From Allofournierella massiliensis (lineage in GTDB: Bacteria > Bacillota > Clostridia > Oscillospirales > Ruminococcaceae): a stretch of DNA of 64,000 bases. The stretch is from NCBI RefSeq assembly GCF_004345265.1, contig NZ_SLUM01000003.1, forward strand, positions 62,001 through 126,000. The letters are read 5' to 3'. The translations under genes were made by a program, and so were the position numbers. A model generated the notes under the pieces. It was not told the origin of the DNA, searched no databases, and saw only the letters and a program-made list of their open reading frames with translations. Below are positions 27,681-30,902 of this stretch, in pieces. Positions within the stretch are counted from its first letter, which is position 1; each line of letters opens with the position of its first letter.

Positions 27681-28202
27681 TTATTCGTGCTCGCCCACCC
27701 AGCGTTCGCGGGTCTCCCACACGGCCTCGCCCTGGGCAAGGCTTTTGGGAAGATCCAGAATGCGCTGGTTGCGGCTGCCCCGAAAGCGCAGCTCCAGGCT
27801 CATCTCGGCCTGTACGAAGGGGCCGTCGATGAGGGTGTCCAGAAGGGTCAGAAGCTCTTTCTGGGCAGGGGTGCCGTGCTGGTACAGCTCCTCGAAGGTG
27901 TAGCCGGTGTAGCTTGCCACCTCGTAGCCGGCGGCGCGGGCCAGCCGGACGAATTCCAGCATTTCCGGCCCGGCCTGGGCGAAGGGTTCGCCGCCGGACA
28001 GGGTGATGCCGCGGCAGAGCGGATTCTTCTTTGCCATCTGGATCAGCTGTTCGGGGGTAAAGGGGGTGCCGCCCTCAAAGGGCCAGGTTTCGGGGTTGTG
28101 GCAGCCGGGGCAGTGGTGTGGGCAGCCCTGGAAAAACACGGTAAACCGGAGACCGGGGCCGTCCACAATGCTGTCGCCGGCGAAGCCTGCTACCTGCAGC
28201 AT
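27681..28202 (-). CDS. nrdG: Anaerobic ribonucleotide reductase activating enzyme
   Basis: A 173-residue radical SAM protein. The cluster motif C-x3-C-x2-C is in FFQGCPHHCPGCHNPETW, and TLSGGEPFAQ is the SAM-binding GGE motif. It generates the glycyl radical on the class III reductase. The ATG at 28202 fits the family N-terminus (LQVAGFAGDSIVDGPG); a GTG at 28211 that overlaps the previous stop is the alternative. No independent ribosome site is seen, so translation is probably coupled to the 48-residue radical-domain gene only 5 bases upstream. Confidence 0.93.
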   Translation of the reverse strand: MLQVAGFAGDSIVDGPGLRFTVFFQGCPHHCPGCHNPETWPFEGGTPFTPEQLIQMAKKNPLCRGITLSGGEPFAQAGPEMLEFVRLARAAGYEVASYTGYTFEELYQHGTPAQKELLTLLDTLIDGPFVQAEMSLELRFRGSRNQRILDLPKSLAQGEAVWETRERWVGEHE

Positions 28203-28207
28203 GGCGC

Positions 28208-28354
28208 TCACAGGTGCTTCACGCGGTCGCGCTCTTCGGCCTTCTTGGCGTCGTTCCATTTGTCCATGGTGCCGACCAGATAGCCGGTGATGCGGCGGAT
28301 GCGCTCGAAGGGAACGTCCTTACCAACGACGGATTGTTTCTGCATAGCGGACAT
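28208..28354 (-). CDS. 48-residue protein carrying the NrdD glycyl-radical domain
   Basis: The small product reads, after a short leader, VPFERIRRITGYLVGTM, then DKWNDAKKAEERDRVKHL. This matches the extreme C-terminus of class III ribonucleotide reductases (E. coli NrdD ends in a block of the form RRVCGYLG...FNAGKQEE...RVKHL). The radical glycine would be Gly24 of RITGY. The main NrdD gene upstream stops before this block, so the radical site is encoded in a separate gene. It has its own strong AAAAGGAGGAG site and is translationally linked to nrdG. This is a real gene, not a frameshift remnant, judging from the ribosome site and intact ends. Confidence 0.85.
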   Translation of the reverse strand: MSAMQKQSVVGKDVPFERIRRITGYLVGTMDKWNDAKKAEERDRVKHL

Positions 28355-28616
28355 AGAAAACTCCTCCTTTTATCAGGCGCCGCCCGCCCCGAAAAAGGCA
28401 GGCGGCGTAAAAAATTCAAAAGCAAATGGGGGATAAGACCATTATAGAAAGAACACCGGCGGCACAGCGTTGCCGAAGCAACAAAACAATTGTGCGGGCT
28501 TAATCAGCAAAACGCAGAGGGCCAATAAGGCAGCTTGATGTTTTTGCTGAGGAAAGCCGGGTGCGGAAGGCTGGCGCATCGGACCCGGTCAACGGTCGGG
28601 TTCGTTAAAAAATCCG
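28355..28616 (-). promoter_or_regulatory. 262-base gap between nrdD and the radical-domain gene
   Basis: No gene is seen. On the minus strand a TATAAT lies at 28441-28446 without a good -35. An imperfect hairpin with GAACCCG/CGGGTCC arms lies just after the nrdD stop at about 28581-28603. The small gene and nrdG may therefore have their own transcript. Confidence 0.4.
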
Positions 28617-30902
28617 TTAAGAAAGGCCGCAGAAGGTGGGAACGCCGGGATACTTTTTGCGCAGCTCATCCAGCTTTTCGGGGCTCAGGGCCTCGCCGCT
28701 GCGGCGGCCGCAGCGGGGGCAAACGTCACCGATTACGCCGACGTAGCCGCAAACGGGGTCGCGGTCCACGGGATGGTTGATGCTGCCGTAGCCAACGCCG
28801 CTGTCGTGCATGCAGCGCACAACGCTCTCGAAGGCCTCCAGATTGTTGGCGGTGTCGCCGTCCAGCTCCACATAGCTGATGTGGCCCGCGTTGGTCAGGG
28901 CGTGGTAGGGGCCCTCCTTCTGGATCTTGTCGTAGGCGGAGATGGGATACCACACGGGCACATGGAAGCTGTTGGTGTAGTATTCCCGATCGGTCACGCC
29001 GGGAATGATGCCGAACCGCTTCTGATCCATGCGGGTGAACCGGCCGGACAGACCCTCGGCGGGGGTGGCCAGCAGGGTGAAGTTCATCTTCATCTCCTGG
29101 CTCTTGCGGTCGCAGTAATCCCGCATGTGGCCCACGATCTCCAGACCCTTCTTCTGCATCTCGTCGCTCTCGCCGTGATGGTGACCGTACAGGGCGGTCA
29201 GGGTCTCGGCCAGACCGATAAAGCCGATGGACAGGGTGCCGTGCTTGAGCACCTCACGCACCTCGTCGGCGGGGCCCAGCTGGTCGGAATCCAGCCATAC
29301 GCCCTGACCCATCAGGAAGGGGAAGTTGTAAACGCGCTTGGCAGCCTGAATCTCGAACCGGTCCAGCAGCTGGTTTGCCACCAGCTCCATCATGGCGTCC
29401 AGGCTCTCGTAGAACTTCTTCTCGTCGTGGTCGGCCAGAATTGCCAGACGGGGCAGGTTGATGGAGGTGAAGCTCAGGTTGCCGCGGCTGTAGCTGATCT
29501 GGCGCTCCGGGTCGTAGACGTTGCCCATCACGCGGGTGCGGCAGCCCATGGTGGCCACCTCGGTCTCGGGCCGGCCGGGCACATAGTACTGCAGGTTGAA
29601 GGGTGCGTCCAGGAACACATAGTTGGGGAACAGCCGCTTGGCGCTCACCTTCATGCTCAGCTTGAACAGGTCGTAGTTGGGGTCGCCCTCGTTGTAGTTC
29701 ACGCCCTCTTTGACCTTGAAGATGTGAATGGGGAAGATGGGGGTCTCGCCGTGGCCCAAGCCCGCGTCCTCCGCCATCAGAATGTTGCGGATCACCATCC
29801 GGCCCTCGGGGGTGGTGTCGGTGCCGTAGTTGATGCTGCTGAAGGGGGTCTGCGCGCCGGCGCGGCTGTGCATGGTGTTCAGGTTATGCACAAAGCCCTC
29901 CATGGCCTGGTAGGTATCCCGGTCGGTCTGCTTCCAGGCGCGGCGGCGGGCGGTGGCCACCAGACGGCGGGCGGTGTGCTCATCCACACGGCCGCTGGCA
30001 ATCAGCGCGTCGGCCACAATGCGGTCGAATTCCTCCGCATTGGTCTCCAGGCGGGGCTGCTGGTCCAGCTTGGTAACGGCTTTGTCCACCATCTGGTTCA
30101 CAAAGTCGGCCTCGTTCTCGGTCTCCAGCACGTCCTCCAGGCTTTCGGCCAGCTTTTTGCGGTAGGCCCGGGCAAAGGTCTTGCCCACGCCCTCGGCCAT
30201 GCCGTAATCAAAGTTCGGAATGCTCTGGCCGCCGTGCTGGTCGTTCTGGTTGGACTGGATGGCAATGGCCGCCAGTGCCGCATAGCTGCCGATGCTGTTG
30301 GGCTCGCGCAAAAAACCGTGGCCGGTGGAGAACCCGCCGTGGAACAGGCGCAGAATATCGATCTGGCAGCAGGTGGTGGTCAGAGAATAAAAATCAAAGT
30401 CATGGATGTGGATGTCGCCCTCCCGGTAGGCCTTGGCCTGCTCCGGGCGCAGCAGATACGCCGCGTTATAGGCCTTGGCGCCGGCGGTGCCGATCTGCAG
30501 CATGCTGCCCATGGCGGTGTTGCCGTCGATGTTGGCGTTGTCGCGCTTCATGTCGCTGGCGCGGGCGTCCACATTGGTGATCTCGTCGATGGTTTTCATC
30601 AGGCTGGTGTTCGCCTCGCGGATGCGGGTGCGGTTTGCCCGGTACAGAATGTACTGCTTGGCGGCCGCGTCGTGGCCGGTCTCCATCAGCGCGGTTTCCA
30701 CCGCGTCCTGAATCTGCTCAATCTGGGGAGACTCCTCGCCGCAATCCATCTCCAGCTGGCGGGCAGCACGGGCGGCAATGCGGTCGGCTTCGGCGGCATC
30801 CCCTTCCTGGGCGGCTTCCAGCGCCTTCATAATGGCGGCGGTGATCTTGCTCTGATCGTAGAGCACCACACGGCCGTCGCGCTTAATTACACTTTTGATC
30901 AT
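28617..30902 (-). CDS. nrdD: Anaerobic (class III) ribonucleoside-triphosphate reductase, large part
   Basis: A 761-residue reductase that makes dNTPs without oxygen. It has an N-terminal ATP-cone (MIKSVIKRDGRVVLYDQSKI) for allosteric control, the catalytic barrel with LTTTCCQIDILRLF and the cysteine in ATMGCRTRVMGN, and a C-terminal zinc-type segment (DRDPVCGYVG, VCPRCGRR). After CPRCGRR it ends with PEKLDELRKKYPGVPTFCGLS and stops. The usual glycyl-radical tail (R-x-x-GYL) is missing and is found in the next gene. The ATG is fixed by GAGGAG 7 bases upstream. An NrdR box and hairpin lie in front. Confidence 0.95.
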   Translation of the reverse strand: MIKSVIKRDGRVVLYDQSKITAAIMKALEAAQEGDAAEADRIAARAARQLEMDCGEESPQIEQIQDAVETALMETGHDAAAKQYILYRANRTRIREANTSLMKTIDEITNVDARASDMKRDNANIDGNTAMGSMLQIGTAGAKAYNAAYLLRPEQAKAYREGDIHIHDFDFYSLTTTCCQIDILRLFHGGFSTGHGFLREPNSIGSYAALAAIAIQSNQNDQHGGQSIPNFDYGMAEGVGKTFARAYRKKLAESLEDVLETENEADFVNQMVDKAVTKLDQQPRLETNAEEFDRIVADALIASGRVDEHTARRLVATARRRAWKQTDRDTYQAMEGFVHNLNTMHSRAGAQTPFSSINYGTDTTPEGRMVIRNILMAEDAGLGHGETPIFPIHIFKVKEGVNYNEGDPNYDLFKLSMKVSAKRLFPNYVFLDAPFNLQYYVPGRPETEVATMGCRTRVMGNVYDPERQISYSRGNLSFTSINLPRLAILADHDEKKFYESLDAMMELVANQLLDRFEIQAAKRVYNFPFLMGQGVWLDSDQLGPADEVREVLKHGTLSIGFIGLAETLTALYGHHHGESDEMQKKGLEIVGHMRDYCDRKSQEMKMNFTLLATPAEGLSGRFTRMDQKRFGIIPGVTDREYYTNSFHVPVWYPISAYDKIQKEGPYHALTNAGHISYVELDGDTANNLEAFESVVRCMHDSGVGYGSINHPVDRDPVCGYVGVIGDVCPRCGRRSGEALSPEKLDELRKKYPGVPTFCGLS

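Follow-up and report, generated by a model that had tools for sequence, protein, structure and literature searches.

A tail-less class III ribonucleotide reductase and its probable, separately encoded glycyl-radical subunit in Allofournierella massiliensis and its relatives

We analyzed a window of 64,000 nucleotides from the genome of Allofournierella massiliensis (contig NZ_SLUM01000003.1, positions 62,001 to 126,000), where the genes of a class III ribonucleotide reductase (RNR) lie together on the reverse strand: nrdD for the catalytic subunit, a small gene of 48 residues, and nrdG for the radical S-adenosylmethionine (SAM) activating enzyme (Table 1). The first-pass annotation, made from the sequence alone, had described an NrdD without its glycyl-radical tail and, 262 bases downstream, a 48-residue gene with that very tail (RRITGYLVG...RVKH), its own ribosome site, and a position 5 bases before nrdG, all of which the sequence bears out. 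The tail open reading frame (ORF) follows AAAAGGAGGAG, and the 5 bases are those from its stop codon to the likely start of nrdG, whose product matches TIGR02491 with 136.9 bits against a cut-off of 126.1. The 262-base spacer between nrdD and the tail ORF has stop codons in all three frames, and the tail is out of phase with NrdD. A GC-rich hairpin in this spacer may act as a terminator or processing site; the fold of positions 28355-28450 reached -32.5 kcal/mol, a value for the whole stretch including the hairpin.

Table 1. Features of the nrdD-tail-nrdG locus in window coordinates.
Feature	Position	Strand	Remarks
nrdD, class III RNR catalytic subunit lacking the glycyl-radical tail	28617..30902	-	761 aa
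Gene of the 48-aa glycyl-radical tail protein	28208..28354	-	carries RRITGYLVG...RVKH
Shine-Dalgarno GGAGGAG, the tail gene's own	28361..28367	-	read from sequence
GC-rich hairpin in the spacer between nrdD and the tail gene	28378..28407	-	stem of 13 bp, loop of 4 bases
nrdG, radical-SAM activating enzyme	27681..28202	-	NrdG family match

The window NrdD ends in ...CPRCGRRSGEALSPEKLDELRKKYPGVPTFCGLS, and the RxxGYL tail is absent. The Pfam family PF13597 (NRDD, 562 positions) is divided over the two ORFs, positions 1-531 falling in NrdD and 532-562 in the 48-residue protein, and the NCBIfam NrdD models divide likewise. Scores of the window NrdD were 608.7 bits with PF13597, 86 bits with the ATP-cone, and 1079 bits with NF005497 (cut-off 764). 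Its recognizable parts are the ATP-cone, the barrel, Cys178, the finger-loop Cys454 (TMGCR), Glu616, a zinc-type segment with Cys718, Cys728, and Cys731, and a C-terminal extension of ca. 25 residues. Cys178, Cys454, and Glu616, presumably with the same catalytic roles as in T4 NrdD, were invariant across 33 aligned NrdDs. The predicted structure (mean predicted local distance difference test [pLDDT] of 84.6) matches P. copri NrdD 8p2s (Z of 47, root mean square deviation of 2.2 over 533 residues), and a phmmer alignment carries the window NrdD through chain position 705 of the P. copri protein. The first-pass annotation was right that no radical tail follows, but the protein does not stop at the zinc segment, running ca. 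25 residues further, the last of them modeled with low confidence (residues 755 to 761, pLDDT of <50).

The zinc-type segment holds three cysteines; we take four to be the usual number in the zinc site of class III RNRs. Asp715 (28758-28760) stands at the position of a cysteine in another NrdD, L184 (RDPVCGY versus RCPVCGY). Among the 33 aligned NrdDs, fused or split, at least 90% have this aspartate at what we assume to be the first position of the zinc quartet. The second cysteine of the C-terminal extension has been lost in the window (28617-28640), which reads ...FCGLS against ...FCGCE in close relatives. Outside the window's clade, many split NrdDs (L065-L098, e.g., L070, L072, and L075) end in a segment resembling G-x-x-G(D/N)..EE.DR..NP, with a recurring glycine; this segment may represent a second tail that has decayed or been altered.

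The 48-residue protein matched the Pfam NRDD family with E = 5.1e-9, and P. copri NrdD was its only PDB match up to E = 10 (E = 3.3e-7), values far beyond chance. PF13597 was its sole Pfam match at E ≤ 1, and the pyruvate formate-lyase-type Gly_radical domain PF01228 was not found in it. By phmmer it covers positions 707-739 of the P. copri NrdD chain, with Gly24 at 715. Because the alignment pairs the first residue of the window NrdD with chain position 5 (an offset of 4), position 715 corresponds to native Gly711, and Gly24 therefore aligns with the residue given as the radical glycine in an excerpt of the P. copri study (PMC11226230). Compared with a genome of another genus (G008), the 48-residue protein is identical and its codons differ by 17 synonymous and 0 nonsynonymous changes. 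Among distinct tails, the ratio of nonsynonymous to synonymous changes per site (pN/pS) was 0.139 for split (n = 82), 0.138 for viral standalone (n = 44), 0.161 for cellular standalone (n = 38), and 0.145 for fused tails (n = 54), values that point to strong purifying selection on the tail gene. A start preceded by a Shine-Dalgarno sequence was found before the tail in 78 of 82 split, 32 of 44 viral, and 30 of 38 cellular standalone cases; the 10 of 54 fused genes with such an in-frame start give the chance level for this count.

We then searched 148 family genomes with PF13597 and the 48-residue sequence, and 141 of them had an NrdD match. From the NrdD matches listed, to which the following counts refer, 137 of the 141 were classed (G070, G072, G111, and G121 were left out). 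All NrdDs were tail-less in 48 genomes, and 46 of these had a free tail. The two without one were G016, which is 55% complete, and G079, in which the end of nrdD falls in an assembly N-gap; the latter was removed, leaving 47 tail-less-only genomes. Fused NrdD only was found in 84 genomes, with an extra free tail in 17, while the five genomes with both kinds of NrdD all had a free tail. At ≥90% completeness, a free tail was present in 35/35 tail-less-only, 15/66 fused-only, and 5/5 both-kinds genomes. Among named organisms, the split is seen in Gemmiger sp. An87, Scatolibacter rhodanostii, and Subdoligranulum variabile. When 46 of the 47 tail-less-only genomes were rescanned, no full-length NrdD was found, only the tail-less NrdD, its tail or tails, and a few weak partial matches. 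The 47th, the window's own genome (assembly 96.8% complete, 76 contigs), was searched separately, and there, too, no full-length NrdD was found elsewhere; the intact nrdD that the first-pass annotation had named as one possible refutation did not turn up.

In 36 of the 46 tail-less-only genomes with a free tail, the tail lies directly downstream of nrdD (frame beginning within ≤350 bases), and in several relatives its frame begins a few bases past the nrdD stop or overlaps the nrdD end. The remaining 10 carry it on another contig; there NrdD ends about where TGYL would begin, and the standalone tail protein is longer (ca. 85 to 100 aa), with an extra N-terminal domain. This domain had no counterpart in Pfam for the three proteins searched, nor in NCBIfam for two. 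An AlphaFold model of a longer tail protein (mean pLDDT of 68.1) shows the N-terminal domain as beta-alpha-beta-beta at a pLDDT of ca. 82 and the tail at ca. 50, and a Foldseek search with it returned nothing at E 0.001 (best E 0.05, a hibernating-ribosome entry). An all-against-all BLAST of the ORFs around unlinked tails detected no recurrent neighbor, oxygen-related or other: the two largest clusters were tail ORFs or opposite-strand frames over them, and the others spanned ≤4 loci.

The class I/II large subunit family PF02867 was detected in 44 of the 148 family genomes (E 1e-5). Among the 35 tail-less-only genomes of ≥90% completeness, 16 yielded no such protein, as did 11 of the 23 at ≥98%. 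With no class I/II RNR found in them, the split NrdD should work in these 16 genomes and should be their sole route to DNA precursors, unless an RNR was missed.

To follow the history of the split, we used a FastTree phylogeny of 159 NrdDs (150 different) with the tail left out. No fewer than 27 switches between the fused and the not-fused state are required on it, 15 being forced by starred branches for the fused label; the states were assigned by a pattern script of the kind that misfiled a few viral rows (see below). The window NrdD falls within a starred clade of 34 rows, 34/34 split. The tail has been split off or rejoined many times. One chain (L117, in G057) carries two tandem glycyl-radical tails and could represent the sort of intermediate that gives rise to a split.

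Beyond the family, we considered 33 genomes of the phylum picked for having a tail gene. A tail-less NrdD was present in 22 of them (G341 and G513 also have a longer one), and the other 11 had full-length NrdD only, with the tail free in nine and joined to NrdG in two genomes of one genus (G449 and G473). In G473, a single open frame (L359, 1432-2316, plus strand) comprises an extra N-terminal domain, the NrdD tail (69-102), and NrdG (123-267; 142.7 bits, over the cut-off), and a 370-residue frame on the minus strand of G449 (L364) was judged by eye to have the same arrangement. Both genomes encode a full-length NrdD as well. Such a fusion, an activase equipped with a radical-bearing tail, ties the two parts together functionally.

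Two further sets of proteins were seen outside the family. In phylum family f39, a paralog of the longer tail proteins (L342-L347) has retained the N-terminal domain together with a FERIRRI-like end but has no TGYL, possibly as a radical-less adapter or inhibitor. In other phylum families, diverged NrdD-tail proteins with an N-terminal domain (L348-L358, frames of ca. 85 to 170 residues) come mostly from genomes that also encode full-length NrdD.

We consider it very probable, from the comparative sequence evidence, that the three genes specify a class III RNR in three parts, composed of a tail-less NrdD, a 48-residue protein bearing the radical glycine (Gly24), and the NrdG activase. The small protein of the window is best read as an obligate subunit of NrdD and not as a spare. 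The proposal in the first-pass annotation that the radical would be formed on a separate protein working with the tail-less NrdD thus gained strong comparative support from the invariable presence of the tail in near-complete tail-less-only genomes, from its unlinked copies, and from the genomes in which no other RNR was found; the purifying selection, the alignment of Gly24, and the natural tail-NrdG fusion back the same reading. By analogy with the family, NrdG would abstract a hydrogen from Gly24, and the 48-residue protein would dock into the slot of NrdD that is held by the C-terminal glycyl-radical loop in fused NrdDs. Following the known class III RNR mechanism, the Gly24 radical would then generate a thiyl radical on Cys454 of NrdD, from which catalysis by the split enzyme would proceed. 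In an excerpt of PMC11226230, the glycyl-radical domain of P. copri NrdD is described as disordered in the inhibited dATP form; this part is therefore able to come out of its slot, so that a separate subunit is plausible.

The most serious competitor, to which we would give somewhat less than an even chance, is a spare-part system in which the free tail is a replaceable cartridge restoring an NrdD cleaved by O2, as YfiD does, with the tail-less state as its extreme end. According to an excerpt of PMC8683613, YfiD and T4 Y06I were the only validated spare parts in 2021, both for pyruvate formate-lyase, and the same excerpt speculates on spare parts for other glycyl-radical enzymes. Like E. coli YfiD/GrcA and the T4 phage protein Y06I, the 48-residue protein is a small, free glycyl-radical protein homologous to the C terminus of a big enzyme, of a kind that phages carry too. 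The extra tails of fused-only family genomes, the 11 phylum genomes with full-length NrdD only, and the additional tails in genomes already holding a split set (G020, G047, and G052) all favor such a system, and for relatives combining fused NrdD with a free tail, a YfiD-like spare part would be the natural reading. Unlike YfiD/GrcA, however, the 48-residue protein belongs to NrdD and not to pyruvate formate-lyase, only ca. 15 residues precede its radical segment, and no intact NrdD was found for it to rescue, either in the window's genome or in the other tail-less-only genomes, whereas an intact enzyme accompanies the free tail in the 17 fused-only relatives. The lack of a recurrent, oxygen-related or other neighbor beside unlinked tails also counts against the cartridge. 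The likeness to YfiD drawn in the first-pass annotation is therefore partial: a spare-part arrangement exists among the relatives, but in the window's genome the tail is no spare beside an intact enzyme and is the only copy found.

It seems rather unlikely that the separation serves as a regulatory device, in which a radical part encoded behind a hairpin and next to nrdG sets the number of NrdD molecules that can be activated, oxygen being irrelevant. The window has the hairpin, the separate ribosome site, and the position before nrdG that this would call for, a tail joined to NrdG exists, and the disorder reported in the excerpt cited above for the dATP form would also fit. Nevertheless, the spacing is not general, given that in several relatives the tail frame starts only a few bases from the nrdD stop or overlaps the end of nrdD.

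Some observations do weigh against a three-part enzyme. The window's own genome has a PF02867 protein (C21), so that its NrdD is not its only RNR, and many of the relatives are draft or metagenome assemblies. Moreover, in 12 of the 39 relatives with an adjacent tail (L065-L115) the frames of NrdD and tail are parted by just one in-frame stop, and adjacent tails are in the phase of NrdD in 21 of 39 cases, these 12 included, versus 13 expected (p 0.007, relatedness uncorrected). Readthrough could thus be conceived in some relatives, or the split could often arise by a new stop; neither possibility extends to the window or the 10 genomes with an unlinked tail. A single gene joined at expression by an intron, intein, readthrough, or frameshift, or broken by a sequencing error, is very improbable, even if phage nrdD genes split by introns and inteins are known (PMC3653736, in excerpt). 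The out-of-phase tail with its own start and Shine-Dalgarno, the stops in every frame of the spacer, the tails on other contigs, and the recurrence of the split in many assemblies reject intron, frameshift, sequencing error, and, in the window, readthrough. No Rfam family was found at the locus at gathering score, and inteins were considered without a dedicated model search; the sequencing error or intervening element about which the first-pass annotation had warned was thus not borne out. Equally remote is a decaying or dispensable NrdD whose work is done by another RNR, with the tail ORF as a relic: the PF02867 proteins of this and other family genomes would allow it, but the 17:0 ratio of synonymous to nonsynonymous changes, the pN/pS values, the catalytic residues conserved in the 33 aligned NrdDs, and the 16 genomes in which the tail-less NrdD is the only RNR found reject a pseudogene.

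Tails were also found on viral and mobile DNA. The best 80 of 234 relatives retrieved from viral contigs with the 48-residue sequence were sorted by pattern: 52 counted as short tails standing alone, 18 as fused, 5 as adjacent to NrdD, and 5 as others. This sorting wrongly put L263 and L264, whose frame was wrong, and L311, a fragment of NrdD, in the viral standalone class and L177 and L206 in the adjacent one, with other errors possible. Fifty of the 80 viral records were scanned whole: the 48 sorted as standalone contain the tail only and no NrdD, and in 45 of the 50 a match exceeded the family cut-off, although these records have no completeness estimate, include near-duplicates, and are often short, so that absence of NrdD from the phages is not established by them. 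Two records (L244 and L261) contain both a tail-less NrdD and a tail. Ten neighbors on nine viral contigs comprised two endolysins, two integrases, a holin, a tail fiber, the large and small terminase subunits, a DNA methyltransferase, and one unknown. In bacterial genomes, extra tails have amidase and BppU genes as neighbors in L119 and terminase and portal genes in L123; others lie next to an M23-peptidase and an integrase gene (L120, in G020), or PrgI, TraG-type ATPase, and M23-peptidase genes, as in conjugative elements (L122, in G047). Among annotated phage records, the 48-residue sequence matched 15; in Eggerthella phage EL753P1 (L320), the nrdD is annotated with 952 aa and without tail, and in this record the downstream tail frame is interrupted between RRI and GYL. 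We see roughly even odds that the glycyl radical used for ribonucleotide reduction is a detachable part in many gut and rumen Clostridia, that tails circulate as separate genes, repeatedly lost from NrdD and replaced beside it, and that phages and conjugation-type elements supply the radical part to the NrdD of their host, keeping or seizing DNA precursor synthesis.

Some viral NrdDs are short (612 to 623 aa in L244, L261, and L266) and lack the tail; closely behind each comes a tail protein that has the extra N-terminal domain.

A full-text literature search, mostly beyond subscription journals, returned no report of a separate gene for the NrdD glycyl radical. The window NrdD resembles the canonical class III enzymes of P. 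copri (8p23/8p2s) and T4 (1h7a/1hk8) in its barrel, ATP-cone, catalytic cysteines, and NrdG partner and differs from them in having the radical tail on a separate 48-residue chain and an extra C-terminal extension. RNRs in pieces are already known, both as class II NrdJa/NrdJb, where an RNR of a different class is likewise spread over two genes, and as the phage nrdD genes cited above. The latter are, in an excerpt of PMC3653736, mostly interrupted by an intervening element, unlike the two stable and sometimes unlinked genes described here.

The radical site would thus reside on a 48-residue protein, within a two-part form that in some genomes is the only RNR found. This would provide a natural system for studying how a radical is installed and passed from one chain to another, in which the cofactor protein is of peptide size and easily labeled or synthesized. 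Spare-part repair beyond pyruvate formate-lyase, a speculation raised in the excerpt of PMC8683613, becomes testable. The viral tails suggest a possible class of phage auxiliary genes, easily missed because they are so short, and, if they act as proposed, phage-borne tails would parallel the carriage of Y06I by T4 for pyruvate formate-lyase.

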